NCBI GenBank assembly: GCA_905221615.1
Contig: CAJNDT010006157.1
Coordinates: 187,501-251,500, forward strand
Direction of reading: 5' to 3'
Length of the DNA stretch: 64,000 nucleotides
DNA from: Symbiodinium sp. CCMP2592
Taxonomy: Eukaryota; Sar; Dinophyceae; Suessiales; Symbiodiniaceae
Shown one piece after another: positions 2,918 to 61,921 of the stretch. The notes beneath the pieces are model-generated. The model did not search any database. It was not told where the DNA came from and saw only the letters and a program-made list of their open reading frames with translations. The position numbers and the translations under genes are program-made. The number at the start of each line of letters is the position of its first letter. Within the stretch, counting starts at the first letter, position 1.

Positions 2918-5900
2918 GCATGGTAGGCACACTTCTTCCTGCCACTACAGACTTGGTGGCTACATCCCTCCAGCACGCGGCGCTGTACCTGATGCTGCCT
3001 GATGGCACGCATGTGTGGTGTTGAGAATTGTCCGCATGCCCTGTGGAGTGTGTGCAACTTTCCATGTCTGTTGAGGTTCTTCCCAGCGCAGTCTTTGATG
3101 CTTAGAACGATATTCAGTAGCCGAGCCTGGGGCAGGCAGTGTCGATTTGTTTGAGCTTCCTGTGGTGTGAGCCAAGGATGAAGACGCTCAAAGTGCTTCC
3201 TGTCATGCTCGTTGGGATCCTCTGTCATGCAAAAGATATCCTTCAAAATATTATGATCCACTACTCTCCAGAAGACTCGAGTGTCTTAGCGCGGGCGAGA
3301 AAATATCCTAGAGTAGGAAGCATGGACACAGGTAGCAACTAGAGGAAATGGTTGGATTCAAACCTATGGTATGCTGATGGCATTCTACTGTTGTCCGCTT
3401 TCATACGTCTCTTGATTCTCGTGTCCTGTCTTCCTTTCGATTTTGTCTCCATGTTCTTTGTTTCGATCATGTTTCTGTCTTGCCTTGTACTGAATTTCGG
3501 AGGTTACCTGTCTTACGAGTGAGCAGTGGGTCAGAACCCCAGGGCAGGGTATCCGCTATCCCAACAAGAAGGTCGCTTCGACATGGGCTGTGAAGTCTGA
3601 AGTTTCAGGAGCTGTCTGCAGAACCGAGTCTACAGCCGCCTGGACTACGTGGAAGGCTTTCTGCTGACCTGCTCCTCGGATCGATGAACATGGGAGAACC
3701 AGATTCCACAGGCCCTCGGTTTCATGTACCTGTCAAGCTAAGCCTTCAGGATGCGCGTTCGCAGCACGCCTTACCGCCTTGGTTCAAGTCAGGTACATGA
3801 GCATTCTGAGTCCGGGACTTTACGAACCTTTGAGCACAGGCTGCCCGATGTCCACGGCTTAGCTTCATGCCCCTCACCCTGAATCCGACTCCCACAACCC
3901 GATGCCTAAACTCTGAAGGCTAAATGAAACTCAGACCCCGGCCCCAGACCGGTGCAACTCAGACCTGCCATGGAGCCTTCTGCTCGTGATGCTCAGCCGC
4001 TACCATTGCGAGCGCGTGGTTTGGAGAATGAGAATGGTGCTAACCACTGCAGCCAGACTTTGTGCAGATTCAAGGCTTTTTGTTCTATGTCAACTTTCTC
4101 CTTAGGCGCTATCAGAGTTAGAGGCATTTGCTACAACAAGTGTGCCGCAGTCCCACGCAGCCCCGGATTGTGGGGTGGCGTTATCAGCATGTGTGCTACC
4201 TGCTTAGTTGTTTTGCATAGTAAAGCCCCCCTTCTACGTTTAGTTGTTCGGTGATTGCAGTATGGTGGACGCTGATTGCCCTGATCCAAGGCTTCTTGAA
4301 CGTAGTTATTCAGGCTTTTTGGAACCTGCAGTCCTTCCGAAGACGAGTCCTCCATGGGTCCGAGAATGATTTTACCGGATCCACTGCTCAGAACCGAGTC
4401 GGAGCAACTGTTTACTGCGCTTTGAAAAGCGTGTTCCAGGAGTTTCAGTTTTCAGATGCAGACACGCTTCCTCCTGACTGCTTGCGGCGTGCCCTCTCCA
4501 GTGTGTATGATGCCCAGGGACGATTCAAAATAGGTGACATGGAAGATGCAACTGAGACGATAGAAACAATTCTCGGTTGTCTTCACGCATGCAACGTGTC
4601 GCACGGTCCCGCTTGCTGCCCGTTGCAGTCACAAGCCGAGTTTGTCGAAGAGGCGAGTGACTTTGGTTGTCACCCGATGTGCCTCGCCCATGAAGTGTTC
4701 GGGATTGAGTATGTTGATGTCACTCGTTGCACATTTTGCGGGGCCACGAGGGAACCATCAGTCTCAGGCGCCTACTTGTACAGAGCTTATGTTACAGAGC
4801 TGATTGACTGTCAAAGCCGAACTCCTGCGGAGCAGCAGGTTGTCGCAGATCGACAGAGCCTTTTCCAGGACATGGTGCTACAACTGACATCGAAGCTGGC
4901 AGGGCAGCATCCAGCCACCTTGCAGGAGGTTCTGAGAAAGCTTTGTCAGAGGGATGCTGAAGGGAAGTGCGTAGAGTGTAATTCGCGCAAGACTTTGGTT
5001 ACCGAGCGTTGGCTTACGAAACAACCGAAGACGTTCATTCTGTCGTTGATTTGGCCGACATCCACACCTGGACGCGAAGCCTTGTGGTTGGTGCTGGCAA
5101 TGATCCAGCCACAGCTGCATATGGACCAGATATTCCAGACAAACCCTCATTCTGACCAACCTTACGCGGGACCTTGCTCCTCCAAAGCATCCCGGGTCGA
5201 ACTGGGCGATGCATATTGCTTTCATGGGATGATTTGCTACTTTGGCATGCACTACGTGGCACTTTTCTGGTGTCCCGCGAGGAAGCGCTGGATCTTATTT
5301 GATGACACGAGTGTGCGTGAGAAGGCAGACTGGAACTCAGTTACCAAAGTGATGATGGCCGGCCAATACCTTCCCACCTTGCTCTTCTACGAGCATGTGT
5401 CAGAGGATGCCGTACTGGCAGACTCTCTCGAGGAACTCACCCGTCAAGTTAGCGAACTAGAGCAGCAGCCTTCATGTGCCGCGATGTAGAAAAGATCGTA
5501 ACCTCCTCCTGTGCGGGGTTGCATGACTCTAGCTAGAGGTGGGAGATGGTCCGTCATCCAATTTTGCTGGGGTGTGATGTTCGAAATTCGAAGAGAGCTG
5601 TCCGCAGATCCAGGGACTCACATCTGACATTGTCACCTGCTTGCACAAGGCTTTGTGGCGTTCTTTGTGTGGGACTTTCAGATCCACGAAGCGGAAGAGG
5701 TTGAAAAGAAGATGTCAATGGCTGGCATTTTTATGATGGTTGGTTACCTGACCGTGGACTCTTTTACCAGCAACTTTCAGGACGGCATGTCAATCATGCT
5801 ATTACTTGCATCCGGAAGCTACAGAGTTAGAAGTGGCAGAAAGCCGGCCTTAGTAGTTTGGCTTCTGTTAGTCTCAGAGAGAGGAAGACCGGCTTGCAGG

Positions 5901-19295: not shown

Positions 19296-20084
19296 CAGTA
19301 CGTGTACTTGTGTTTCCTTGTGCATCCACAGGTATTCCTACGCAGAGGTTGATAACCTATCTTTCTAAATTTGTCTGTGCGTTTGTGTGTCTGTCTCTCT
19401 ATCCATCTATCTATCTCTATCTCTGCGTAGCGGTCTACATTGGTATATGTAGAATGTACGATCATTATGATTTTGTTGCGGTATCTTTCTTCCAACCGAG
19501 ATCCCGTTTTGTACACATCAACACTTTCGTTTGGATTCAAAGCCTGGTGACCCAGTCCTAGGCATCAACTGACTGGAAAGCGCCGCCGGGCCCAAGTTCT
19601 GCCTTGGACGCTTGATCTCAACTTCTGCCGATTCGTGTTTGTGAGCGTTGGGACTGAAGCTTTACATGCGAAGGCTTCTAGGGTTTGGGGCGTTGATGTA
19701 AGGATCGCGATGCCGGCATTGCTGCTGTGCAGAACTTCCGGAGCAAGCAGCTGGCACACGCCAGCTTTGTCGAGGCCTCCGCAGAGGCAGGTGAAGGGTG
19801 CGATGATTAGAGAAAACAGCCTTACATATGGTGATACGCATATAGAAAAGTATACATAGAAAAAAACCTAAACACAGCCGTAACAAGCCGTAATAGTAAT
19901 AGTAATGGCAATAACGGTACGGGTAAATCGTCATGGAATTCAATAGAACTGTCAACGTTGGCGATAAGCATAGTAACAACAAGAACAAGCTCATAACACA
20001 CAAAGGGCGTATACGAGTCTGTACATCTTTATCTCTCTGTATATAGATATGTTTCTATGTACGTATATGGTCTGCATTTTACAT
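19296..20084. other. No gene recognised
   Basis: Short open frames only. Near 19880-19925 there is a degenerate AAT/GTA-rich patch. Nothing here can be assigned. Confidence 0.5.
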
Positions 20085-20089
20085 GTTAG

Positions 20090-20142
<53 letters not shown>
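20085..20142. repeat. (TA)n-(GA)n microsatellite, 5' border of element copy 1
   Basis: About 20 bases of TA are followed by about 36 bases of GA, ending exactly where the coding block of copy 1 begins. The same type of GA tract marks the other borders of the 20-24 kb element. Confidence 0.9.
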
Positions 20143-20143
<1 letters not shown>

Positions 20144-20433
20144 CCTCACGGGCGTCAACGAAGAAGAAATAGCGGCGTTGGAGACGGACAGCTTCCTGGC
20201 GGACCTCAACGAAGTGGAAATGCTCCCTACCTTGCCAATGCCGGGGGAGGCGGTGAACAGTCAGTTAAGCACTGTGCCCTGGAACCCGCCACCTACAGTG
20301 CCAGTGGGGACAGCAATACAGCTCACTACAGAAGTGAGCCAAAGTGAGGGGGAGGTTGACTCCGACCCCAGCCCGGAAGGACACCGCCGTAGACGTATGC
20401 TAGCAGTGCTCTACGATAGACATGGGCCCATCT
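20143..20433 (+). CDS. Truncated copy of the element's last reading frame (copy 1)
   Basis: Unknown function. From the GA repeat border a frame reads TDSFLADLNEVEMLPTLPMP, passes an acidic Ser/Glu region and ends in HRRRRMLAVLYDRHGPI, then a stop. The frame ending at 23822 has the same plan: SDSFMADLGEVENMPTLPLP, an acidic linker, then HRRRRLHAAFFDRHGPI and a stop. The two are clearly related but diverged, especially in the linker, so this is an old duplication rather than a fresh one. Its 5' part is missing, cut off at the GA tract. The basic RRRR cluster and acidic linker are the only features I can point to. Confidence 0.6.
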
Positions 20434-20775
20434 GAAGGGGGAAACGCCCGCTTCCACAAGCCCAACCGCTACGGTCACGATACCCTGCAGAAACACTAGA
20501 CCAACTGACGCGTTCTATCCTTGTTGCTTGACAACCTGCAGAGTAAGTACCGCTACGAGGGGGAGAGCACAAACTAGGCAATGACCTCGTACTTCTTATT
20601 ACGCACTTGTTTTGCATGCTGTTGTCCCAACAACCTCCCAACCTCGCTAACTTGTAGACTACTGAGAAAGGCAGGGCAAAGGGGGAAAAACATTCTATCC
20701 ACAATGGCAAGCTGTCTGCACAATGAGCCCCAAAGCACTTCCAAAACTTACTGTACTGGCCTTAGTCCTTGGTGT

Positions 20776-21051
20776 TACGTATTCGGGGAAGTGCCACCTG
20801 CCGTAGACACTACTTGGGGGGATTGCCTGTCGCAGGGACTTAGGATAGTGCTACAGAGAGCGCGGTGATGAGGCCGGGATGCGCGATAACGTACAGGGTC
20901 AGGGTGGTTTACCGACAGGCAATCACCACAAACTGCGCCGACCTCTTGGGGAACAACCCCATGCGATACTGCCCCAAAGCCCTTTTCCACCGAAGACGGG
21001 GGAAGGGGGGCGCCCAGGCGCGGGCTCTTCGGAGCTTGACCCCAGTGAAGT

Positions 21052-21053
<2 letters not shown>
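20776..21053 (+). repeat. Conserved 3' block with hairpin, copy 1
   Basis: Non-coding block shared with 24105-24389. It contains attgcctgtcg at 20822-20832 and its exact reverse complement at 20913-20923. Between them is a conserved core, ggatagtgc...gcggtgatgaggccgggatgcg. It ends in ggagcttgacccc just before a GA repeat. In copy 2 the stem is kept although a base has changed on each side, which suggests a structured RNA or a transposon end. Confidence 0.7.

Positions 21054-21113
<60 letters not shown>
21054..21113. repeat. (GA)30 microsatellite between element copies
   Basis: An uninterrupted GA tract of about 60 bases. In frame it would encode alternating Arg-Glu at the start of the following long open frame. 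It marks the junction between the copy 1 tail and the start of copy 2. Confidence 0.97.
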
Positions 21114-21115
<2 letters not shown>

Positions 21116-22303
21116 GAGCAGCAGCAGCCGGGGGAGGCCCCGCCAGCAAACACCGACGCCACCGCATACAGCTACTATGGAGACTGGACCAGAAGCAAGC
21201 GTGCGACTGAAGCACGCGAACAGCACGCCCAGCGGAGCAACCGCCCACTCGACGCCGCACCGCAGAGTGAGCCACAACAACCTACAGCCGCAGCAGCACG
21301 TGACGGAGACAAAAGGAGCACGCAAGCGGCGGCCGACCACAAAGAAAGAGTACGCAGCAACCGCTACTTGCACCCGGACAAGGGGGAGCCACAGCAGCCA
21401 CCACAACCACCGCGACCACCAACAGATGAGCCACATGCGGAATCTGCCTGGGGGGAAGAGCGCCATGCCACCGCACAGGAAGAGCCGCAAGCCTTTTTCC
21501 AGGAACTGGACGACGCGGCGAACCGGGGGAACCACATCAAGCGACGTGGCCCACCAGCGCTCCCGCATACCGCAAGGACGGAGGTACTCTATGTGGCGGC
21601 AGGGAAAGGCAAGTGGGTCGCCCGAGTTGAATCGACCCCGGGGGCGCCCAATGCTCCTACCAACAGGGAGCAACCTCAACGGGGGATGCTACCAAGTGGG
21701 CAAGAGCTATGGACTTGCCCTGCCCTACCGGACGGAGCAATCGTCGAAGTGGAGACCACAGTCGGCCTGGTGTACATGATGACGATCATCTCCCTACCGC
21801 CTGAACATAGACAGGAGGGGGGGACACTTGCGACCACCGTCGGGGAAGCCTTCTTCATCGAAGAGATCGACGGCGTCTGGATGATTAGACCCACAGGGGG
21901 GACTCGGCATGGACCGCCCCGGAGGAAATACCAGCCACCACCTGCCAATACTGGCCGGGCAGTTGGCAACAGCACCAATCCGGGGAAACCGGCCAAAGCC
22001 ACAGCCAAAGCAGCCGAAGCGGGGAGTGCCCAGCAACCACAGAGAGGGGGAAGCATCAGCAAAGCCGCCGCCAGCAAAGCCACACCACAGCCAAAACAAC
22101 CGCCACAGCGACCAAGCCCCCTGCCAGCGCTACCTACACAAGGAGGGGGCACCACAGCCGACCTACCACCACAAGGCCAAGACACCTACCTTCATGGACA
22201 GACGGCCACTGCGAGGCCAAGACCCACCACCACCGAAAGCACTACAACCGCCTGCACAACAACCACCACAACCACACTTTTTCGAACTGATAAAGGACAA
22301 TAG
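21114..22303 (+). CDS. Element open reading frame A (unknown, Pro/Gln/Lys-rich)
   Basis: Unrecognised. A frame opens upstream at 20879, runs through the GA tract and stays open to 22303 (474 codons in all). The middle section looks like real protein: LYVAAGKGKWVARVESTPGA, then LPDGAIVEVETTVGLVYMM, then GEAFFIEEIDGVWMIRPTGG. This suggests a small beta-rich domain before a disordered Pro/Lys/Ala tail. An ATG at 21177 opens a different frame (METGPEASVRLKHANS) that also looks protein-like for about 65 codons, so the true start is uncertain. Beyond about 22180 the credible sequence moves to another frame. There are no reverse transcriptase, integrase or transposase motifs. Glycine is mostly GGG, giving frequent GGGGG runs. 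Confidence 0.45.
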
Positions 22304-23018
22304 ACAACGTGGCCGAACCCCAGGGAACGGGGAGCCCGACAATACCGAGCTGTGGCAGCACCAGCACCTGCACATGCGGCCAACAAGACAAAGCACAACA
22401 ACCACCACAACCACCACCACCACCACACCGGCAGTCTGCAACGAAGACAAGGGAGAGCGCAGCCCCAGCATGGATGGGACAACGACAGATGAAGAGAACT
22501 TCGGGCTGATACGCAGGCGCAGACGCACGCCTGTAGGAGGGGGAAGGCGCAGAAGCAACCGCAGCCGCCAGCAAAGCGCCACAGAAGCAGCCGCACCCGC
22601 ATTGCCGTCAGCTGCAATAGCCTCCATGCAGGGGGCACTGATGGCAGTCGCCACACAGCTGCAGCTCATAGAGGAGATAGCGGAGAGCCTACAGGGGGCG
22701 GAAGGGCAGATCATCACGAACATCTGCTCCATCGCCCTTGCCATGCTTGCAGACACTCAGCGGGGAGAAAACCCACCGAGTGTGCCGGGGGCGATCCCGC
22801 ACGAAGTCGAGTGTGGCGCACTACGGGAAGCCTACCGCCAGATCTCCAGCATGAGAATCAGACGGGGGGAAGGCCTCACTCATGAAGAATACGCCACCGA
22901 CCTCAGCTCCGTCAGGAACCTGTGCAGCATGGGGGAAGCCGAGCTACGGGAGTCCGCGTCTGGGGGAGTCTCAGCAGCTGCGAGAACCAAGGCCATAGCA
23001 GCCGCGCAGCAGGCCTAA
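22190..23018 (+). CDS. Element open reading frame B (unknown, helical C-terminus)
   Basis: Unrecognised. The frame is open from 21909, but the convincing part begins near 22190 with TPTFMDRRPLRGQ. It passes a Thr run, DEENFGLIRRRRRTP and an Arg/Gln-rich patch, and ends in an amphipathic helical region (MQGALMAVATQLQLIEEIAE ... ICSIALAMLADTQ ... HEEYATDLSSVRNL) before the stop at 23018. It overlaps frame A in a +1 relation, which would fit a programmed frameshift, a second cistron, or decay. No homolog comes to mind. Confidence 0.45.
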
Positions 23019-23282
23019 TCAGGCCTACCGACAGCTTGATACAGCCATATTGCCCGCATTGGGGGGCGACCGAAGCTGGAACACACTGCGATGGCGGAGT
23101 GACTTGCAAAACACCTTCATCCCAGCAATGACCATGGGGGAAAGGTGCCAGCGAGCAGACAAAACGCAAGTGCGAGAAGAGGGGGCGCCCGCCAGTGCGC
23201 ACCCAGCGGACGCCCTGGCCCTGGCTGAGCCAGGAACCAGACGGCGAGGACATCAAAGAGCCACTCCACGGCAAGGCGGCTT

Positions 23283-23822
23283 ATGGAAGCCGCACACCTA
23301 CTACGCGAACAAGTTCCACGAATGGGGGACGAGTCCATTGGCGCAGCGGTGCAAGTACTACAAGCGGTGGAAGCGTGGCAGCAAGCCTACTTCGGGGGAG
23401 TACATGCCGTACACGATGCCACGCAGACGGGCGAAGAAGAGGGGGAAGCGGATACCGGTGCAACGGAGGCCGCAGCTGAACAACCAGCAGCGGCAGAAGT
23501 ACCAACCAGAGGTACGAAGAGACGTTGGCTGGGGAGACAAGACCTCACAGACACCGAAGCCAGGGAGCTACAGAGTGACAGCTTCATGGCAGACTTGGGG
23601 GAAGTGGAGAACATGCCAACACTCCCGTTACCCACGGCCCCGGACGTGGACACAGCGAACGCCACCACACTGCCATGGGGAGACCTGGGGGAGACCAGCA
23701 GAAGGAGCCCTACTACACGAGTCAGCTCTGAGGGGGAAGGGAACAGCCCAGACTCCAGCCCGCGGTCGCATCGTCGGCGTCGACTACATGCTGCCTTTTT
23801 CGATCGCCACGGCCCTATCTAA
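23283..23822 (+). CDS. Element open reading frame C, full-length partner of the 20143-20433 fragment
   Basis: Unknown function. From an ATG at 23283 it reads MEAAHLLREQVPRMGDESIG, then an acidic Ala/Glu-rich stretch, then KRRWLGRQDLTDTEARELQ leading into SDSFMADLGEVENMPTLPLP and the terminal DRHGPI. About 180 residues. The last 80 are homologous to the copy 1 fragment at 20143-20433, so the C-terminal motif is conserved and probably functional. The region between frames B and C (23019-23282) changes best frame at least twice, near G runs. Confidence 0.5.
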   Translation: MEAAHLLREQVPRMGDESIGAAVQVLQAVEAWQQAYFGGVHAVHDATQTGEEEGEADTGATEAAAEQPAAAEVPTRGTKRRWLGRQDLTDTEARELQSDSFMADLGEVENMPTLPLPTAPDVDTANATTLPWGDLGETSRRSPTTRVSSEGEGNSPDSSPRSHRRRRLHAAFFDRHGPI

Positions 23823-24104
23823 GAAAGAAGGGGGAACGTGAGCCACCACCCCCAGTGCCAAGCCCACACTTGAGTTAGTTGTTTCAACAGGTCAGCGTTT
23901 TCCTTTTGCACAACGGGCGACTGGCAAGGGGGACGACCATGTAGAATAAGAGCGGGACCTTCCCTCGTCTTCGTCACTGTACCAGGGGGGTTTTGTGTGT
24001 TGCTTTGTTTGGGGACAAAGGGGGAAGGATCCCAAGCAGCCTATCCCGCATCGTACTTGTACTGTGTTCCTGCACTGCACGGTCCTTAGAGTGTTGCTTC
24101 AAAT
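23823..24104. other. Element 3' untranslated sequence
   Basis: Between the stop of frame C and the conserved 3' block there are only short frames and more GGGGG runs. The equivalent stretch of copy 1 is 20434-20775. Confidence 0.4.
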
Positions 24105-24389
24105 CAGGGGAAGGCTGCCGAACTACGTAAACTGTGGGGGGAGGAATTGCCTGACGAGGGTCTAAGGATAGTGCCATAGAGGGTGCGGTGACGAGGCCGG
24201 GATGCGGGCTAAAGTTCGGGGCTGATAGGGGGGGTTTGACCGTCAGGCAACTTCCACAACCCGAACAGTCCAGGGGGGAAACTCTCCATGTAAAAAGACC
24301 CCAATGCCCCTCTTCCACAATCGCGGGAAGAAAGGGGGGGCCTCGGCCCGGGTCCTTCGGGACTTGACCCCTGCAGCGAGCGAGCGAGC
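24105..24389 (+). repeat. Conserved 3' block with hairpin, copy 2
   Basis: Second copy of the 20776-21053 block. Stem arms are ttgcctgacg at 24147-24156 and cgtcaggcaa at 24241-24250. Relative to copy 1, T-A has become A-T with both arms changed, so pairing is preserved. The shared core (aggatagtgc, gcggtgacgaggccgggatgcg) and the ending gggacttgacccc before a GA repeat are retained. Confidence 0.7.
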
Positions 24390-24648
24390 GAGAGAGAGAG
24401 AGAGAGGTTTTGGTGACTTTATCGGGGGAATAATCTTTCTCTCTGTTGCCTTTTATTGGGGGGATCAGGCATATGCGATATGTCAAAGAAGAACGGAGGA
24501 ACATTGAATTCGTCATCGCATACTTTATGGCCTTAGCCTAAACGATGTTTTCCCGGTTCTTTCGTTTTCACCCCCCGTGTCCGTCAACACGACGGGTGGG
24601 CATGATGCCCGGGGGCGCTGACCCGTCCCCATGCCCGGGAGAGAGAGA

Positions 24649-24682
<34 letters not shown>

Positions 24683-26506: not shown

Positions 26507-29500
26507 GCCTAGTCCACACAAGATAGTGCTGGACGCATTGGCCGATTCGCCACGAAACATAGCCTTCTTTCGGAACGGTAAACGCCGATGGGGGCTGCTG
26601 CCTGCTCCGGGAGGACCCCTTGGCCAGCTCCTGGATTGCACATCGCAAGAGCTCCAGCGAGAGCTCGCGGGAAAGCAGTCGGCAAAGGTCTTGGTGCTCG
26701 GCGGCAATGGCACCATGGACGTTGATTCGTTAGGGCCGTTAGGAATCGCCTTCATCATGTCATGCGGGCCGAGCATAGGGAGGTCCCTGTGGCCGCTGCA
26801 GCACCGCTGAGGTGTGTCAGCCGTGTCCGCTCTTCGAGCTGGTGCCGCAAGGGTTGTGCTGTGGGAGCCTCTGCCGGACGTCGCTGCGATCGCAAAGGAG
26901 GCGGGAGCCCGGCATAGCCCAGCATGGTGTTGGTGTGTGGATCACTTTGATCATGTTGAAACCCTACGTCCTTTACCAGTCTGTGCTTTTGTTGTTAGAC
27001 GCATAGCCCCGCGTCGACCCAGGTTGTGCGCCGAAACCTGCCAGAACAGGCCAGATCCGTCGCTCATGGTGCCCGGACATTGTACAGTATTGCATAATCT
27101 ATCTTGAAGAATAGACGATCGTGCGGGGCAGCATAAATTCGCATACATTGAATTCTGTCGTCCGTTCATCTGTGGTTTTGAAGAGTGTCTCAGGTATGTA
27201 AGCTTGTGGTCCGGAAGTGCTTGTGCTACTAATGTCTTTACTGCAATGCTTCTCGACAACGACGACTCTGACCACCACAATCACGACCACATTCTTTACA
27301 CAAGGCATTTCTATGGCGAATCACGCACACATTTTGGCATAACAGGTTATAGCAGCATGTATACATAAATAGACATACATATTAATGTACTAGTATGTAT
27401 GTACGTATGTATGTCTGTCTGTATGTATGTATGTACGTGTAGGAGTGTTCTTAAGTTTGTGATGTTTGTCTGTACGAGCCCTGTACGTGTATGTATGTAT
27501 GTATGTATGCATGCGGGAACCTGCGTTGTTTTTTTGCTGTTGGTGCTTTTATGCTGTTCTGCTCTGCAGCTGAAGCCCCGCCAAACCAGCAAGTGAGAGA
27601 ACGGCCCGTCGCGGCAAAACAGCAAAACACGCCTCCCCGCAACCCCAGCCAAAAGACAAACCACAGCGCTTTATTTCGCTGAGCACCCCTTCCGCCCTGC
27701 ACTAACAGCAAGTGAAGAAACTTCGTCCCGTAGCAACAGCAAATAAAGCACCCCCCTGCAGCAACAGCAGAAAAAGCACTCTTAGCGTACGTATGTGTGT
27801 GTGTGCTTATGTATGTAGAGGTAGGTATGTATGTATGTCGTATGTCTCCGTGCATGTAGGTAGGTATGTATGTTTGTGTACACACGCACAGTCACACTCA
27901 TGCAGATATTGCAAGCATGCACAGTCACATCTCACATTAACGTGTTGATTTAATTGTCGCACATCTCACTCAAGTGTTGCGATGATTGCATGTCCCACTA
28001 AACTAAGCTTCGGACTATAGTATAATCAGTGTTGTTCTGCATAATGATGACGAATGCTAGCGATGCTACTACAACGTTTAATTCTCAGCATTGATCTTTC
28101 AGATCCTTATGCGTCATGGCGTACGTTCGTTGTCTATTACTACAGTACTTGCATCCTGTGATATCATCCGCTGTGTCCATGTGATGTCATACTGTGCAGA
28201 CATACTTGCGGACTTGGCCCGCCCCCCCGCGAGAGGTCGCCAGCTGTGAAATCTCCTCGGAAGCTATCCCATCAGGGCCCTGGGATTTGGTTGTCGTGGA
28301 TCGATGGCATGGCTCGGGTTTGTTCAGCTGCTCGGCTCAGACTGAGAGGACCACCATCGGCGTCTGGGCGGAATGCACATTGCACTGGTGGCATTTCTAA
28401 ATCAGCTCAGGCTGGGGGCCGGCGCAGTGCCTGAGAAAGGCAACTGCTGCGGCAACTGCGGGACTCTCGCAATTAAATTTCATCTTGCCCTCACAGTCCG
28501 GGCAATGTGCAGTTGAACCGTCGAAATTAAAAGTCTTTGACGATATGAAACCCAGTACAACAAGGGTGGACTTTCGTTTGAGGGTTTAAGGAGGGTTTAA
28601 GCGGGCTTAACTCATTGCTGAGGCTGCGCATCTGAATTGTAGGCGTTATTGCAATTCGAAAGTTGCCCTGACCGGTTGGTAAGTCTAGTGCCTCTCTGGC
28701 ACAAGAGTCTGCACCTGAGCCCTGAGCCCTATTGCAAGATTGGATCCAGAAATCTGTTACTGTAGCAAATTGTCGGCGAAAATCCGCTGATGTAGAAGCG
28801 TCTGCATTAGGGAGAGGGGAAACTGGAGCACAGGTTTTTTGAGTCCTTCGGTGCAGAAAAGTTTAGGGATTTCGACAGGCGCCCATGCCAAGGAACAAGT
28901 AGTAATAGTAGTAGTAGTAGTAGTAGTAGCAGTAGCAGTAGCAGTAGCAGTAGCAGTAGCAGTAGCAGTAGCAGTAGCAGTAGCAGTAGCAGCAGTAGTA
29001 GCAGTAGCAGCAGTAGTAGTGGTAGCAGCAGTAGTAGCAGTAGCAGTAGCAGTAGCATTAGCAGTAGCAGTAGCAGTAGCACTAGTAGTGGTAGCAGTAG
29101 CAGTAGCAGTAGCAGTAGCAGTAGCAGTGGCAGTAGCAGTAGCAGTAGCAGTAGCAGTAGCAGTAGTAGCAGTAGCAGTAGCAGTAGCAGTAGCAGTAGC
29201 AGTAGCAGTAGCAGCAGCAGTAGCAGTAGCAGTAGCAGTAGCAGTAGCAGTAGCAGTAGCAGTAGCAGTAGCAGTAGCAGTAGCAGTAGCAGTAGCAGTA
29301 GCAGTAGCAGTAGCAGTAGCAGTAGCAGTAGCAGTAGCAGTAGCAGTAGCAGTAGCAGTAGCAGTAGCAGTAGCAGTAGCAGTAGCAGTAGCAGTAGCAG
29401 TAGCAGTAGCAGTAGCAGTTAGCAGTAGCAGTAGCAGTAGCAGTAGCAGTAGCAGTAGCAGTAGCAGTAGCAGTAGCAGTAGCAGTAGCAGTAGCAGTAG

Positions 29501-29565
29501 TAGCAGTAGTAGCAGTAGCAGTAGTAGCAGTAGCAGCAGTAGCAGCAGTAGTAGTAGCAGTAGGC

Positions 29566-29630
<65 letters not shown>

Positions 29631-29659
29631 TAGTAGTAGCAGTGGTAGTTGTAGTAGTC

Positions 29660-29746
<87 letters not shown>

Positions 29747-29974
29747 TAGTAGTAGTAGTAGTAGTGGTAGTATGTAGTAGCCGTAGTAGGAGTAGCTGTA
29801 GCAGTAGCAGAAGGAGTAGGCGTAGGAGTGGGAGTCGGAGTGGGTGTGGGAGTAGGAGTAGGCTTATTGGTCTTATTCTGAAAGATTGAACTTTTAAGCC
29901 CTGGGGTTTCTGGGAAGTAAGGTAGGAGTAGGAGTAGTAGTAGTAGTAGGAGGAGGAGGAGGAGGAGTAGTCGT

Positions 29975-30006
<32 letters not shown>

Positions 30007-31535
30007 TAGTAGTAGTCGTAGTAGTAGTAGTCGTAGTAGTAGTAGTAGTAGTAGCAGTACTAGTAGTAGTAGTAGTACTAGTAGTAGTACTAGTAGTAGC
30101 AGTAGCAGTATCAGTAGAGGAGTAGCAGTAGATAGCAGTAGGAGCAGCAGGAGGAGGAGGAGGCGAGGAGTAGGAGTAGGAGGAGGTGTAGACTGTAGGA
30201 GTCGGAGTCGGCGTGGGAGTAGGAGTAGGAGCAGGAGCATGAGCAGGAGCAGAAGTAGGAGTAGAAGAGAGTCGGAGGAGGAGGTAGTGGTACTGGTGGT
30301 GGTGGTGGTGGTGGCGGTGGAGGTGACTGGTGGTTCCTGATTCTACGGTCAAACAGCTATCAACCACACTTTGATGCCTGAGCACTACACGGGCTGGTCT
30401 TGCCTGCGCAGCATGATCTTGAGGCACTTGCAGCGTAAGGCCATATGCGCGCGTGGATGTGTCTGTTTGTCTCTATCTCTGCGTGTGTGATTTTGTGTGT
30501 GGGCGTGCACGCCTTCAGCCAAGGGCGGATCCTTCCGGCCGCAGTGCGAGTCTCCGTGGCTTTGGCAGACGCGAGTCTGAAGGCATCGGGTTTTGACCTC
30601 ACCGCCATGGATTCCCGTGGCCTGGCTTAGCACTGAAGCCGTGAAACATGTCGCCTTCAGCGCAGACATTGAGGGCATTGAGGAGAGCAATGCACTGGTG
30701 CCGGGTGCCTTGAGGATTTCGTGCTCTATCGGCCGCTCCGATGAAGGCCTGGCTGGGGAAACAGAGGCTTGCAGCGATACCCGATCCAGGATTGAGCCGT
30801 TTCGAGCTGCCCGTGCGGTTCTGCCAAGGTCAGCATGGAGGAGTCCTCGCATGCAACCGCACTGAAGCCGGTGCGGATCGCAGCACGTTGAGAATGTCAC
30901 AATGTTGTCTGCAGCTGGGGTATTGCTAGGTAGTCACGACATGTCACGACCTCCACGGAGGTGCTTATGACAGACTTCTCGGCACCCGTCTTTGCCTGCT
31001 ACTTAAGACCTAATGCGTCGAGCGGCAGGGAGCATGATCGTCTTGTTGGAGATTTCGAGGAGTGGCAGCTGTCAGACGATGCGGAGGATGGCCCAGTGCC
31101 GGTCCACCTCCAAGCAACAGTCACTGGCAAGGCATCAGTTGCGATCATCCAAGCCGAGATCATCTTTCCGCATCTCGGCTCCGATGAAGAGTGATGAAGC
31201 TGAGGATTCATCCTGACGCGCTGCCTGGCACGGTGCTGTCGCCCCGAGGTCTGGCAGAAGCACTTCCGTGCGTTTCGCACAGTGGATGGCGGGCGGTCTG
31301 CCTTTACATGCTGGTCAAGTAACCAGGATGCAGCCAGCAATCATCAGAATCTCAACTTACGAACAAAGCAGCAGGGACCCGACTTGGATGTACATATTCT
31401 TGACATCTCTGATGTCCAGTGTCTTCTGAGTAGCCCAAGGATGTCAGTACATGTCAGATGAGGTTGTCTCGGGTATCACGGCACGGCGGAACGACGGCCG
31501 AGTTTGGATTGATTGGGACTACGCTGCATGTCGTA
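26507..31535 (+). CDS. Protein arginine methyltransferase-like module 1 (degenerate)
   Basis: First of two consecutive PRMT-fold modules, probably one PRMT7/PRMT9-type protein. Exons read: about 26507-26577 (DALADSPRNIAFFRN), 26650-26742 (AKVLVLGGNGTM, motif I position), 26812-26900 (SALRAGAARVVLWEPLPDVA), 27023-27068 (VVRRNLPEQARSVAH), 28234-28317 (GPWDLVVVDRWHGSG, double-E loop position), about 30524-30616 (GRILPAAVRVSVALADAS, barrel start), 30961-about 31180 (VLMTDFSAPVFA to GKASVAIIQAEIIF), and probable pieces near 31240-31310 and 31458-31535. Donors are GT, GA, GC, GT, GT in order, with consistent phases. The SAM motif I is unusual, with about ten extra residues, and the loop that normally carries two Glu reads VVVDRWHGSG. 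Methyl transfer by this module is therefore doubtful. Satellites at 27.4-27.9 and 28.9-30.3 kb lie in its introns. Confidence 0.6.
27365..27880. repeat. TGTA/TATG microsatellites in a methyltransferase intron
   Basis: Two patches, about 27380-27515 and 27790-27875, of TATG, TGTA and TCTG units. Both lie inside the reconstructed intron 27069-28233. Between them is an A/C-rich segment with several cagcaa/gcaaca repeats. Confidence 0.9.
28897..30320. repeat. 1.4-kb AGT/AGC satellite in a methyltransferase intron
   Basis: A long array of AGTAGC hexamers (about 28920-29560), then AGT triplets to about 29760, then degenerate AGG/AGT/CGT triplets to about 30310, interrupted at 29865-29920 by non-repetitive sequence. 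It gives long Val-Ala, Ser and Thr-Pro frames on both strands that are not genes. It lies between the exon ending at 28317 and the barrel exon at 30524. Confidence 0.97.
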
Positions 31536-39479: not shown

Positions 39480-39601
39480 AGCAACAACATCAGCAGTCGT
39501 CGTCGTAGTCGCAGCAGGTGGCAGTAGCAGTGCAGTAGTAGCAGTAGTAGCAGTAGTCGAAGTAGTAATAGTAGTAGCAGCAGTAGCAGCAGCAGCAGCA
39601 G

Positions 39602-39646
<45 letters not shown>

Positions 39647-39915
39647 GAGTAGTAGGAGTAGTAGGAGTAGTAGGAGTAGTAGGAGTAGTAGGAGTAGTAG
39701 GAGTAGTAGGAGGAGTAGGAGGAGTAGGAGGAGTAGGAGGAGTAGGAGGAGTAGGAGGAGTAGGAGTAGTAGGAGTAGTAGGAGTAGTAGGAGTAGTAGG
39801 AGGAGTAGGAGTAGTAGGAGTAGTAGGAGTAGTAGGAGTAGTAGGAGTCGTAGGAGTAGTAGGAGTCGTAGGAGTAGTAGGAGTAGTAGGAGTAGTAGGA
39901 GTAGTAGGAGTAGCC
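39480..39915. repeat. GTA/GGA triplet and nonamer satellite
   Basis: GTAGGAGTA and GGAGTA units after a short GCA/GTA part. The Val-Gly, Leu and Thr-Pro frames running through it on both strands are repeat artefacts. Confidence 0.96.
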
Positions 39916-39984
39916 CTGGCACCAGTGAGCTCCAACTTTGATCACCGGTGCCAATGGCAACCTATGCAGTGCAATGCGGAGGCC

Positions 39985-40134
39985 ATGCCTGCATTTCTAC
40001 TTCGTTTCTTCCGGAACGGACTGACGGCCTTTCTGCTGATTGCCGCCGCTGTCAGAGCAAAACATGCCTCGCCTTCTGCCAGTCGCAGAACTGTGCCTCT
40101 GCTACTAGTGCTGCATAATCACTATCCTCGCTCA
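39985..40134 (+). CDS. First exon with signal peptide or signal anchor
   Basis: From the ATG at 39985 the frame reads MPAFLLRFFRNGLTAFLLIA, then AAVRAKHAS. This is a short basic start, about 15 hydrophobic residues and an Ala-x-Ala-like end, as in secretory signal peptides or type II anchors. It continues RRTVPLLLVLHNHYPRS to a possible GT donor (CTCAG|GTACAC, 40135). It sits just downstream of the satellite. The mature protein is unknown; a luminal enzyme is likely from the leader alone. Confidence 0.4.
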
Positions 40135-40840
40135 GGTACACACAACAATCTGCAGCTTGATGCCTGGCAGCCTACAAACTTGCTTCGGCTGACCACTGCC
40201 AGTTAGCTGGAAGCCTGTAGGCCGCCAACACCCAAAGGTCTTCGACCTGGGCTGTTCAGCTATAGGGTCTGAGTCAGTTTCACACCATGTGAGTGCACCG
40301 CGGCAATCGCCCGCTATGTGCTGAGCCCGCTCGCACAGCGTTCAATTGAAATAGTAGGAGTAGTAGGAGTAGTAGTGGTAGGAGTAGGAGTGGGAGTGGG
40401 AGTGGGAGTGGGAGCAGGAGTAGGAGTAGGAGTAGGAGTAATAGTAGTAAAGTAGCAGCAGCAGCGACGCACCCTGTACCCTGGGTATTATTGTGCCAAA
40501 ATCCTGACAGTGTACAGTTCACCGCCCGCCAACGTGAGCGATGTTCCCGACGCAGTTCGGGTCATAGCATTACTGTGATGCTACTTACCTTGTACTTAGC
40601 ATCGTCGCGCAGGAGTTGCGAAGCCAGACCGTGGAGGCTTCATGGGCCCATATGCCGAGGCAACCGAAGCTGTGCAAGGATTCGCATCACAACGTCAAGC
40701 AGCCACTGACGACGTGAATCCCTAGACCGAATGGCCAGCGTTCGCAGTTGCACCACTGTCTGCATTTTGCCATATTTTTTGAAGCTTGGCTGCGGCGGAC
40801 ATTCGTCTTGGCAAAATCTCATAAACATAAACACCATCCA
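40135..40840. other. Short GGAGTA microsatellite and unassigned sequence
   Basis: About 40350-40455 is a degenerate GTAGGA/GGGAGT repeat. A + frame at about 40580-40690 reads DATYLVLSIVAQELRSQTVE, protein-like but unrecognised. It may belong to the gene starting at 39985. Confidence 0.4.
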
Positions 40841-43325: not shown

Positions 43326-44350
43326 GACAGGATCCGGATTCCTCGCATCATCCACCAGCTGTGGATGTCACCTCACCAGCCAGGCCTCCCCTGATACTTG
43401 TAGCCGTCGTACGTCGTAGTCATTCATGTCGGCGCAATGTGCAGTTCGCCTCGAGTCTTGAAGAGGTTTGACGTTCCAGGACCGCGAGCCCGAGCGCCCC
43501 AATCTCAGAGACCTGATGGCCTTTGGTCCACAGCACATGTGATGGATAAGCGTTTGTTGTGTCCCCACTTCTGCTGGTTTCGAGCGGTGCCGAGTTGAGG
43601 TCCTGACATTGTAGACGCCATTCGACAGTGGCGTTTTGCAGCGCACAGGGCTTGTGATCGAGTGCATGTAGTGAGTGTCTGTTTGCCCACGTCCAGATGC
43701 TCAGATGCTCGTTGTCATGATTGTCACACCGCTCCCACGGTGTCATCATACAGCAATTTCACTTACGAGCTCTTGTATGTCAAGGCTGCGCGACTCGCCG
43801 GAGCCTTGGCAACACCAGGCAGGGGCCTCTCTCCGTGAAGCAGAGCCCGAAGGCTTATCTTCGCTACACTCTGCAAGGTCTGGAACCGCTCCTCGGTGAG
43901 GTCCGTCCTTGACCCGTACCCTCATTTGGCAGACGGGTTTGAGCGCCTGGCAAGGCAGCTCGGCTGTTCACTGACTGGATGTTTCGTTCTACAACAGTAA
44001 TGCAGCCAGTTGGAGCACGGAGATGCATCGAAACAAACGCAGCCACGCATGTTTTGGAGAATGCTAAGAAGCTAGAGGCCATCACGGAAGGGCGTTCGTA
44101 TGTGTTTGGAAGTCTCGCGAGGTGGCCTGAGCGGCAAAAGGACTTCTTCATGTATGCCGCAAGCCCCTGCCAAAAGAGATTTCTTGTCAACACGAGTTGT
44201 CTTGTGCGAACGCTGCTGTCCCCTCTTGCGCAGAGAGTCTTCGGCAATAATTACTTGGCAAGTCTTCGAAAGGTACTGGGCATTGTTGGAGGCGTGTTCA
44301 TCGATGCCGATGTTGTGCCGCATGATGCTCAGTTTCTGCATCACATCAGC
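43326..44350 (+). CDS. OCH1/GT32-type glycosyltransferase (DXD sugar-binding family), partial
   Basis: Golgi enzymes that add sugars from nucleotide donors. Two family hallmarks appear in order on the + strand. At 43326, after TTGGCAG, the frame reads DRIRIPRIIHQLWMS, which is the IPxIIHQxW entry strand. At 44273, after CGAAAG, it reads VLGIVGGVFIDADVVPHDAQ, which is the GGxYxDxD box holding the metal-binding DXD (DAD). Between them lies a long open frame (43979-44272, VLENAKKLEAITEGRS), which is credible but not diagnostic, and a Tyr/Lys frame at about 43762-43810. Exon joins in the middle are unresolved. A signal-anchor exon lies 3.3 kb upstream (39985), but the HNH gene sits between, so I do not connect them. 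Confidence 0.62.
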
Positions 44351-45136: not shown

Positions 45137-46205
45137 TCACGCGCTCCGCGGCCCCTCCCCCTCCCCCCTCCATGGTCTATGGTCCAGGATGCCCCCTCCT
45201 GTGGGATGGAGTGTGGGTTCCCTCTTCTCCCTGTGGGGTCGATGTGGGGGTTTTGGGGTTTTGGGTCTAGCTTAAGCTTGTGAGTTTTGGGTTTAGGGTT
45301 TTGGGTTAAAAGGTATAAGGCTTCGAGTCGACAAGGGCTTAGGGAGGGTTTGGGGTGTAGGTTCGCTAGGGTTGATAGTTTATGTCCTGGTTTATGCTTA
45401 GAGCCTGCATTTAGGCGGGGTTTAGGGTTGGTTGTAGGGTTTGAAGTTTAAGTTTAAGGTAATGAAAGCAGGAGCAGGCGCTACTGCGCTACGTTATAGG
45501 ATTTATGGCTTGCGTAGGGCTTGCGTACGATGCTGGCTGTCTGTGAGGCCTGGCCGTCCCTCCAGCTGCAGCTCCAACAGCCTCCAACCCTCTCCGCAAA
45601 CGCCAGCCCCCCCCCCCACCCCGTCGCAGACCATTGGGGGGGTCTGGGAAGGCCAGACGCCTGACCATATATGGTCATGCGCTCCGCGGCCCCCTCCCCC
45701 CCTTCCATGATCTATGGTCCGGTTTTGGGGTGAGACATGGGGTCCCTTCCACCTGCGGGGTTGCGTGGGTTTTTGGGTTTTGGGTTTACCTTAAGCTTTT
45801 GAGTTTTGGGTGTAGGGTGTGTCGACAAGGGCTTGGGGAGGGTTTGGGGTGTAGGTTCGTTAGCCTTGATGGTTTCTGTTCTGGTTTAGGCTTAGAGTCT
45901 TAGAGCCTGCATTTGGGCGGGGTTTAGTGTTGAGTGTAGGGTTTAACGGTTTAAAGTACAGATGAAGGCTAATAAAAACAGGAGCACGCGCTACTGCGCT
46001 AGGCTATAGGGTTCATGGCTTGCGTAGGGCTTGCGTACGATGCTGGCCTCGTCGGTAACCCCTGGCCGCCCCTTTAGCTGGAGGCTCCAACGGCCCCAAC
46101 CCCTCTCCACACACGCTAGCCCCACCCAACCCCCCCGGCCTACCAGACTATACCTTTGGGGGGCGGGTGGGGGGGCTGGGAACGCCAGACGCCTGTTCAT
46201 ATATG
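45129..46205. repeat. 538-bp tandem duplication rich in TTTAGGG-like sequence
   Basis: Unit 1 begins atatatggtcacgcgctccgcgg near 45129 and unit 2 begins atatatggtcatgcgctccgcgg near 45667, a period of 538 bases. Shared blocks run the full length: cttaagctt, gtcgacaagggctt, agagcctgcattt, gcgctactgcgcta, ggcttgcgtagggcttgcgtacgatgctggc and ccagacgcctg. The unit starts atatggtc and ends gaccatat, so the join is the palindrome gaccatatatggtc (45664-45677). The interior holds many TTTAGGG and TTTTGGG variants. The similarity is clear but imperfect, so the duplication is not recent. Confidence 0.9.
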
Positions 46206-59300: not shown

Positions 59301-59915
59301 GGTGCTCCTCAGGGATTAGTTTCGGCTGCTGCATCAGAGAGTTCATGATGAGTAGCAATGCGGAGCCACAGCGGAAATGACGGGCGTGACGATATGACAG
59401 CTCATTTCGAGCACGGCCATGACGATACGTACGATATCACACACGATAATACCAGCTAACATTGAACTACGATCGTAGCAGTAAGCTAAGTGGCAGGTCT
59501 ACAGCACCAGGTAAAAGTCAGCTTGATGTAATCATGCTTCTCCTCACAAACTCCCACTTCATGCAGGCAGCGGTACGAGTTTGTCGTACTGACTGAAAGT
59601 GGTGCTGGCAGCGGCATTATTCCTTGTAAAGTTGGAGAGCAGATTGCAGGAGTAGTAGTCGTAGTCTTAATGACTGTGGTGTGTCATAGCGGCAGTGGTA
59701 GTACTCGTCGTCGTCTCAGTCGTAGTAGTATTAGTCGATATTAGTCGAAATAGTGTCAGTGGCGGTGGTGGTAGTAGTAGTAGCGGTAGCAGTAGCGATA
59801 GCAGTAGCAGTAGCAGTAGAGTAGGAGTAGTAGCAGTGGCAGTGGCAGTAGCGGTAGCGGTCGTGGTAGCGGTAGCAGTAGTAGTAGCAGTAGTAGTAGT
59901 AGCAGTAGTATTAGC

Positions 59916-59973
<58 letters not shown>

Positions 59974-60940
59974 CTGTTGATGGAGGAAATCTTGCACCAG
60001 TTTAAGTGGCCAAGCCAAGCAGACACCCCACGCCCCCTTTTTAACATTGACCGGTGATCCTCGGAAGTGCCGTGAGTTCCAATGACAAAAATCTTGCACC
60101 ACCTCCGTATCCATCATCTTCAATGTTAAAAAGGGGGTGCGGGGTTATGCTCAAGTGTCGTGTCACCTGTTATTAGGCAGATGGTGCAAGATTTCCTCCA
60201 TCAACCGACAGGATCCTTCTTGCTGAGATGACCAAAGTAGCCTGTGTCTTCACTCGACTGTACCACGCTTCCTGTGACGGGTACCATCCACATGCAGACT
60301 AAGCCCGATACATGTCCAAGAATGCGATACGGCAAGCTTGTTGGCACGGCTGGTTGCTATAGGTACGGCCCAAGACCACACAAGCCGACTGTGGTTGCAG
60401 GCTTCCAGGATGCGACTTTTTTTTGCACCCTGACCCGGGTGCTCCACTTCGATCCAAGTCTGCTCCATGCAGCTCCGCGGCACTCCAGTGGGACTCCCAC
60501 TGGCGAGCTCCTCGTGTATTCTGGCTTAGTGATTAGTGTAAATTCCTGGCATTTCCCACAGTTAACGCTCAGTTAACACTCAGTTAACGCTCAGTTAACA
60601 CTACAGTTAACACTACAGTTAACACTGCCGAAATGCTGCGAAAACCAGCATACTACTACTGCTGCTACTACTGCTACTACTGCTTCTACTGCTACTACTG
60701 CTACTACTGCTACTACTGCTACTACTGCTACTACTGCTACTCCTACTACTACTACTACTAATACTAGAAGTAGTAGTAGTAGTAGTAGTAGGAGTAGTAA
60801 GAGTAGCAGTATTAGCAGTAGTAGCAGTAGTAGCAGTGGTAGCAGTAGTAGCAGTAGTAGTAGTAGCAGTGGTAGTAGTAGTAGTAGTAGTAGTAGTAGA
60901 GTAGTAGCAGTAGAGTAGTAGTAGTAGTAGTAGTAGCAGC

Positions 60941-60981
<41 letters not shown>

Positions 60982-61921
60982 CAGTAGCACTACTACTACG
61001 ACGACGAGTAGTAGCAATGGTGGTGGTACTAGCAGTACCATGTAATACGGTTGTTGTTGTTGTTGTTGCTGCTTTGGTGGTGGTGGTGGTGGTGGTGGTA
61101 GTGGTGTCGCAGCAACAGTAGCGGCGCGAGGTCACGGCAAAGCCAGCATTATCAGCAGCAAAAACTAGCAGCTAACAACAACAATGGGACTTCTAATTTT
61201 GCATGTCACTTCGACTGGAATCGCAATACCGATGCCTGAGAACAATGAAACGGACAGGAACAGCGGTGTTTCATGTATTTCCAATGCGTAGCACCACTCG
61301 CACCAGCTGCTTGCGCAGCAGGTCGCTGAGCAGCTGCTTGGACTACTTCCTGGCGAAGTCTTGGCTGTGCACATGACGCGATGGGGCCAGGTGGAGTGGG
61401 CACTGGGATCCTACTCGAAGCTTGCTGCCGTTTATTTACTTGCGTCGGCAGGTAGCGTCTAGGTCTTGCCTTGCTTTTTCTCGAGCCATGTCATGGAATG
61501 GACATTTGTGACCGGGGCTTGTTGTTACTTGCTGTGCGATCCTACGACTCTCTCTTGTTGAGGGAGCTTGAGTTTCTGGCTGCCGGCCTGGGACGCCCTT
61601 TTTGGCTGTCGTTCGACCTCTGCTAGCACGGCCTTGAAACTTGCAGCTTCCGTAGCCCATGCTTCAGCAGTCAGCGCGTGCTACCCAACCAGAACAAGCT
61701 AGAATACGTCGAAGTGCCAACTGAGGATGAGCACGAAAGATGCGGCAGCTTTGCTGCAGCCAGTGCATCCTTGCGCTTACCCTTGAATCGTGTATGCTTC
61801 CGAGGAGTGGGATGATGTGCGGTCATTGGTTTCTGGCATGGAAGGCAGAAGGATCCGGCTTGCAGGCGAACATACCCACGAAGAGCATCAGGACGGGCCC
61901 TCAGAGATTACTGCTTCATGA
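56338..61921 (+). CDS. Flavin-containing amine oxidase (polyamine/monoamine oxidase family)
   Basis: FAD enzyme that oxidises amines, releasing H2O2. Exons: 56338-56371 and 56744-56793 (joined ADVVVVGGGVAGLTCSERLL, the GxGxxG dinucleotide fold), 56850-56903 (VLLLEWQDRLGGRL, the GG motif), 57111-57186 (DVTADAGAAWVHG), 57258-about 57300 (GTDGNPLLLDGLL), about 57668-57776 (SEAEARRLRLLQLWFGTSAD), 58074-58169 (LEWDSEHGSMGDYPGPHAVL), about 58330-58375 (RGIEVRFGEEV), about 59095-59186 (RYFWQLFNYWPLNGKALML), about 59246-59312 (SVIPEVQAMSDEEAREVLL), about 61716-61775 (DEHERCGSFAAAS) and 61805-about 61891 (RRIRLAGEHTHEEHQ). This is the order in polyamine oxidases: EARDRxGGR, DxGAxWIHG, GNPL, WDxD..F.GxH, then AGEHT. 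Donors are GA, GA, GC, GA, GT, GC with matching phases. The final GAxxSGxRAA helix and the VPLGVLK strand were not located. Large repeats and a fold-back element lie between 59.6 and 61.1 kb, inside one intron. Confidence 0.85.
59645..59975. repeat. GTA/GCA triplet microsatellite
   Basis: Degenerate GTAGTC, GTAGCG and GTAGCA units, then about 60 bases of pure AGT. It lies in the amine oxidase intron and abuts the fold-back element. Confidence 0.95.
59976..60205. mobile_element. Fold-back / MITE-like element with 24-bp perfect terminal inverted repeats
   Basis: The left end gttgatggaggaaatcttgc(acca) at 59976-59999 is the exact reverse complement of 60182-60205. A second inverted pair lies inside: 60027-60050 (ccacgccccctttttaac...) against 60120-60144 (...gttaaaaagggggtgcgg), nearly perfect. 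Part of the end sequence (aatcttgcacca) recurs internally at about 60090. The 230-base unit has no open frame of note, so it would depend on a transposase supplied elsewhere. I see no clear target-site duplication; the left flank is AGT microsatellite. Confidence 0.8.
60555..60627. repeat. Short tandem repeat of CAGTTAAC units
   Basis: Six CAGTTAAC units spaced by GCT, ACT or ACTA, a period of 11-13 bases. CAGTTAAC contains the palindrome GTTAAC. Confidence 0.9.
60650..61110. repeat. TAC/TGC then AGT/AGC microsatellites, then GTT/GGT
   Basis: A TACTGC strand switches at about 60765 to its near complement GTAGTA, so the RNA could fold back on itself. GTT and GGT repeats follow at 61045-61105. 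The long Ser, Thr and Leu frames are artefacts. Confidence 0.95.

Follow-up and report, generated by a model that had tools for sequence, protein, structure and literature searches.

A cluster of three microsatellite-bounded units occupies positions 20107–24682 of the 64,000-nucleotide stretch of Symbiodinium sp. CCMP2592 DNA analyzed here (contig CAJNDT010006157.1, positions 187,501–251,500, forward strand; hereafter the window), in the order (TA)n(GA)n, unit 1, (AG)30, unit 2, (CGAG)n(GA)n, unit 3, (GA)22 (Table 1). Units 1 and 2 are homologous, lie head-to-tail in the same orientation, and have GA on either side of each. A first-pass annotation of the bare sequence had described two homologous 3′ halves bordered by GA repeats, and both points are borne out: the protein tail of unit 2 finds unit 1 by tblastn with 45 of 102 residues identical (E 5e-18), the shared non-coding end aligns by blastn at 72% over 237–275 nucleotides (nt; E 9e-24 to 4e-31), and (AG)18, (AG)30, and (CGAG)n(GA)n tracts are located around the units. 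The same annotation described a common tail followed by a common downstream block; both are present, the non-coding 3′ block being ∼600 nt long, but the coding part common to the two units is only about 96 codons.

The two units have a common 3′ end but not a common 5′ end. Both appear to begin inside coding sequence, at different points, with the start of unit 1 corresponding to a point ∼2.4 kb 3′ of the start of unit 2. The units have no terminal repeats, a common 3′ end, and variable 5′ truncation, as expected of a long interspersed nuclear element (LINE) and as judged from two homologous copies. Together with the paired RNA at the common end, the GA on both sides, and the single direction, this arrangement fits insertion into GA repeats by target-primed reverse transcription that stopped early. 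We consider the region probably to be a head-to-tail cluster of 5′-truncated insertions of an RNA-copied element that integrates into (GA)n microsatellites; that the element is mobile is suggested by this anatomy.

A DNA transposon family that targets microsatellites might leave a similar locus, as a modular array like those of the SaTar Mu-like elements of guayule and rice. SaTar arrays are reported to consist of unrelated units that lie side by side without nesting and are joined by microsatellites (PMC5907723), and the end-to-end inverted similarity of units 1 and 2 is somewhat above average, with 18 and 21 of 500 shuffles, respectively, reaching their scores. However, long terminal inverted repeats are the defining feature of SaTars, and here the local inverted scores of the first against the reversed last 60 nt (10, 12, and 5) lie below the shuffle maxima (13, 14, and 11), no inverted repeat pair of at least 18 nt occurs over 20100–24420, and units 1 and 2 share their 3′ and not their 5′ end. 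A DNA transposon is, in our estimation, quite unlikely.

Table 1. Features of the unit array (window coordinates)
Feature	Positions	Strand	Remarks
(AG)18 tract, 5′ side of unit 1	20107..20142	+	End of compound (TA)n(GA)n microsatellite
Unit 1	20143..21053	+	5′-truncated copy: last ∼96 codons and 3′ non-coding block
Unit 1 protein tail	20145..20435	+	HRRRR...DRHGPI; stop 20433–20435; 45% identity to unit 2
Unit 1 RNA domain	20823..20922	+	Helix P1 (20823–20832 with 20913–20922) around hairpin P2 (20848–20863); compensatory changes versus unit 2
Unit 1 3′-terminal junction	21006..21043	+	GGGG/CCCC stem around two hairpins, one UUCG loop
(AG)30 tract	21054..21113	+	Separates units 1 and 2
Unit 2	21114..24376	+	Longer copy; start also within coding sequence
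Unit 2 frame A	21116..22300	+	395 amino acids, Q/P-rich; first Met codon 21686
Unit 2 frame B	21885..23018	+	Helical segment about 22.6–22.9 kb; stop 23016–23018 at 10-nt tandem repeat
Unit 2 frame C	23229..23822	+	Carries DRHGPI tail; stop 23820–23822
Unit 2 RNA domain	24147..24250	+	P1 (24147–24156 with 24241–24250), P2 (24171–24186)
Unit 2 3′-terminal junction	24334..24371	+	With UUCG hairpin
(CGAG)n(GA)n tail of unit 2	about 24377..24406	+	
Unit 3	about 24407..24638	+	∼232-nt GA-tailed fragment; two GGGGGA; GC-rich 3′ hairpins predicted
(GA)22 tract	24639..24682	+	3′ of unit 3

The protein tail is under purifying selection. Among 93 aligned codons, 42 residues are identical, 27 of them through different codons, and the nonsynonymous (dN) and synonymous (dS) divergences of 0.63 and 2.05 give a dN/dS of ∼0.31, with dS near saturation. 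In both tails a stop codon directly follows DRHGPI, and the MAFFT alignment again gives 45% residue identity. A selected coding tail on units in one orientation could also be explained by tandem duplication of a host gene, with two copies that have since decayed and GA-rich DNA between them, and tandem gene arrays are reported for a dinoflagellate (PMC7245778). Against such a gene pair, which we regard as unlikely, the 3′ non-coding end surpasses the coding tail in conservation and has covarying pairs, the units differ in length with GA bounding each, and the next unit is a GA-tailed fragment without detected homology.

With gapped columns omitted from the MAFFT alignment (41 in the coding part, 74 in the first part of the 3′ untranslated region [UTR], and 11 in the 3′ domain), identity is 134/260 (52%) for the coding part, 147/309 (48%) for the UTR up to 20815, and 164/229 (72%) over 20816–21046. 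The 3′ domain is therefore more conserved than both the coding sequence and the first UTR part, which argues for a selected RNA end, unexpected for an ordinary gene. RNAalifold run on both ends predicts 49 pairs, 8 of them compensatory. A hand-written structure of 29 pairs, comprising P1, P2, and the terminal stem with its two hairpins, of which one has a UUCG loop, pairs in 58 of 58 cells and includes 5 pairs in which both bases differ between the units. Sliding the structure, in six versions, left 0 such double changes every time, and 14 of 500 shuffles do as well as the original. When the window was scanned with a model of P1 (default filters, E up to 1), only units 1 and 2 were returned. 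Extra matches to the end model at 46089–46203 (13 bits, E 0.044) and, on the minus strand, 45263–45219 (E 0.88) are taken as chance. A hammerhead core sought by eye in the P1 domain was not convincing. Rfam gave 0 matches at gathering score across the whole window, and the 8 matches obtained over 20000–24500 at E up to 10 were all below it.

A structured RNA end on a U-poor strand (12% T in 21114–24389) would also suit a retro-copied fragment of a host RNA virus, and virus-derived inserts are reported for symbiotic dinoflagellates (PMC10235124). Yet viral contigs scanned with the unit 2 tail, a 20-nt RNA-domain pattern, the tail alignment, and the frame B segment contained no relative; none of 4 proteins matched PHROGs; the best fold match in BFVD had an E of 1.2 among the best 50 of 89; and three GA-tailed units in one array suggest a target preference. 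We consider an endogenous viral element highly unlikely. The unit 1 RNA end was also unmatched in phage records. Thirteen bacterial matches from a pattern scan of genome contigs were set down to chance, since blastn of the 3′ blocks against all 13 loci aligned 20–25 nt only (22 alignments).

The plus strand of units 1 and 2 is peppered with GGGGGA, a one-strand pattern that is a new observation of this analysis. The motif occurs 31 times on this strand in units 1 and 2 (4.2 kb), twice in unit 3, and 6 times in the remaining ∼59 kb, and the minus strand has 8 occurrences in the window, with zero within 20143–24638. Unit 2 contains 34 runs of at least five Gs and 2 of at least five Cs, whereas 300 dinucleotide shuffles give a mean of 8.7 such G-runs and a maximum of 18; unit 1 contains 8, against a shuffle mean of 1.9 and maximum of 7. 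In sliding windows of 3276 bases (step 100), those starting before 16800 or after 24400 hold at most 5 plus-strand runs of this length, and some of them, at 43901–44301, hold 8 C-runs. Of the 55 runs of at least four Gs in units 1 and 2, 43 have A as the next base, and the starts of the runs fall in all three phases. In unit 2, runs have a median spacing of 68 nt and are placed more evenly than random, both for at least four Gs (coefficient of variation [CV] 0.67 versus 0.96, p 0.003) and for at least five (CV 0.70, p 0.026).

The places of the runs in the UTR are conserved. After runs were deleted before alignment, 4, 5, and 7 of the 8 runs in the unit 1 UTR had a unit 2 run within 2, 5, and 10 nt, respectively, against null means of 0.78, 1.61, and 2.73 (p 0.003, 0.005, and 0.0008). 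A version in which runs were masked, giving 8 of 8 conserved places, was set aside because masking favors run-to-run alignment. Glycine is encoded by GGG in 37 of 63 sampled codons, but a codon effect was rejected for the runs, which start in all phases and also occupy the UTR. These properties, with the conserved UTR places, make the motif a nucleotide-level feature spanning coding and non-coding sequence, and the runs may serve as RNA-level signals.

Unit 3 may represent a separate family that behaves in the same way: neither blastn (best E 2.7) nor the RNA models detected homology to units 1 and 2. Outside the array, one minus-strand site likewise holds two GGGGGA within 233 nt.

The visible coding sequence extends over ∼2.7 kb. 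The body of unit 2 is apparently one reading path interrupted by frame changes: frame 2 gives way to frame 0 near 22.2 kb, frame 0 to frame 1 near 23.01 kb, and frame 1 to frame 0 near 23.26 kb. This copy thus seems decayed. Where the second change falls, a tandem repeat of 10 nt is visible by eye, with 9 of 10 bases matching. The open frames agree with the path given by composition scores, which were trained on both tails and thus on a set that includes the tail itself: frame 2 leads from 21114 to ∼22.1 kb; from there to 23.0 kb most windows favor frame 0; frame 1 leads at 23094–23274, and frame 0 again as far as 23.7 kb. These scores are equivocal in places. Frames 0 and 2 tie near 22.0–22.2 kb, frame 1 is ahead at 22374–22554 and at 23634–23814, within the known tail, and frame 0 is ahead at 23004–23184 although it has stops there. 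Frame A has zero Met in its first 190 codons, and its first Met codon comes so late that the N terminus appears to be missing. A segment of frame B is predicted to be helical (mean predicted local distance difference test [pLDDT] score 64.9), and the structure model of 21590–21961 in frame A is poor (mean pLDDT 42.5).

The first-pass annotation had found long frames with no known domain, and no family match above cut-off was obtained from Pfam or PHROGs. The best Pfam E values for frames of units 1 and 2, 0.65 and 0.12, are under the cut-off, and three further frames had no match. PDB sequences, searched with frame B and the tail profile only, gave a best E of 0.22 for frame B and nothing for the tail. 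Fold comparison of the frame B segment gave a best E of 3.0 in PDB (41 matches up to E 10), and neither this nor the BFVD match was used. Homology to a known Gag was thus seen neither in Pfam, PHROGs, or PDB sequences (frame B and tail) nor in fold comparison with a weak model. A known Gag or host gene family, which the annotation held would overturn its proposal of an undescribed mobile or repeated system, was likewise not matched in Pfam, PHROGs, or the PDB and BFVD folds. Of that proposal, a repeated coding element with a conserved RNA end, GA-bounded copies, and no known family stands, and mobility is plausible from the anatomy. The visible open reading frame (ORF) encodes an extended protein of low complexity, helical in part, with HRRRR...DRHGPI as its basic tail; as a guess, it may be a Gag-like RNA-binding protein.

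The insertion mechanism that we consider most likely would run as follows. A reverse transcriptase, supplied by a partner element or by the upstream part missing here, would recognize the folded 3′ RNA end (P1 domain and terminal junction). The RNA, through its GA tail, would pair with a nicked (TC)n strand, where cDNA synthesis would start, and frequent early stops would yield copies starting at various points directly after GA. GGGGGA within G-runs, ∼70 nt apart on the sense strand, could act as repeated RNA-level marks, bound by the ORF's own Gag-like protein or by a host G-tract protein. The RNA intermediate, the target choice, and the roles of the Gag and the motif are our suggestions. 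We also put forward, as a speculative and somewhat unlikely proposal, that a Gag-only family marks its own RNA along its full length, in coding and non-coding parts alike, with spaced GGGGGA as repeated packaging or ribonucleoprotein-assembly sites and colonizes GA microsatellites through a partner's reverse transcriptase; unit 3, which has the motif without detected homology, would then indicate that the mark is common to several families.

Several observations weigh against insertion of an RNA-copied element as set out here. Pfam detects no reverse transcriptase or endonuclease in the units or in nine other long ORFs of the window, so the reverse transcriptase expected of a LINE is not seen in the visible part, whatever lay upstream being missing from these copies. 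No target-site duplication is readable within the GA microsatellite. The first UTR part is no better conserved than the coding sequence, and the single-sequence folding energies of the 3′ blocks are ordinary (z −0.93 and −0.48, with 33 and 57 of 200 shuffles folding at least as well). With two homologous copies to compare, support for the structure stops at the named helices. Unit 3 has 3 runs of at least four Gs and 2 of at least four Cs, without a one-strand G excess; given these counts and the GGGGGA pair outside the array, its part in the signature is weak. The Gag-like label has to contend with the modest confidence of the helical model and with the E values of its best fold matches.

As no reverse transcriptase was found, the element would be either a Gag-type non-autonomous one or one without its upstream half. 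The latter corresponds to an autonomous retroelement whose reverse transcriptase lay 5′ of the ORF and was removed by truncation in both copies; since this is a special case of the reading we favor, the two estimates overlap. Both units appear to start within coding sequence, and these copies thus place no constraint on upstream content. However, the ∼900 codons before the stop hold no Pfam-detected reverse transcriptase, and in the known non-LTR (non-long terminal repeat) families this enzyme sits in the last ORF. We hold an autonomous element to be possible but doubtful.

Elsewhere in the window, a 421-amino-acid open frame at 4224–5486 matches ubiquitin carboxyl-terminal hydrolase (Pfam UCH, E 1.9e-15), and a 195-amino-acid frame at 48320–48904 matches PrpF under the curated cut-off (E 2.9e-5, 23.6 of 27 bits). 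The microsatellites and the hydrolase match give the host a eukaryotic appearance. Long trinucleotide-based repeat arrays of AGT/AGG/TAG types lie at 28898–30334, 39534–40440, and 59771–60987. A splice-leader motif, searched for with at most one substitution as a test of the dinoflagellate label, did not turn up on either strand of the window.

If the proposed role of the marks is true, retroelement RNA would be recognized through many short one-strand marks rather than one packaging site, and the locus would be a further example of modular arrays built through microsatellite targeting. Being simple, the G-run signature lends itself to the search for further families from composition alone.

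Among the open-licence papers listed, judged by titles and abstract openings, we saw no comparable element besides the SaTar arrays. These resemble the present locus in consisting of different, non-nested elements joined by microsatellites, but SaTars and MULEs (Mu-like elements) have long terminal inverted repeats, and none is clear here. Togen, a (TG)n-specific non-LTR retrotransposon of the NeSL group, inserts into a simple repeat (PMC4640811); elements of this type share simple-repeat insertion with the units described here, but their families are recognized from the reverse transcriptase, and none is seen here. The ORF of HeT-A, a telomeric non-LTR retrotransposon of Drosophila, encodes Gag. 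HeT-A is reported to be without its own reverse transcriptase. It also has a long 3′ UTR, forms head-to-tail arrays in one direction, and shows an element-wide strand bias (PMC5537684). The present array shares with HeT-A the lack of a visible reverse transcriptase, the long 3′ UTR, the head-to-tail arrangement, and a strong strand bias in composition. In contrast, HeT-A has poly(A) and joins chromosome ends, whereas these units have a GA tail and a microsatellite site, their ORF showed no similarity to a known Gag in the searches above, and their bias takes the form of a discrete motif, a G-run followed by A.

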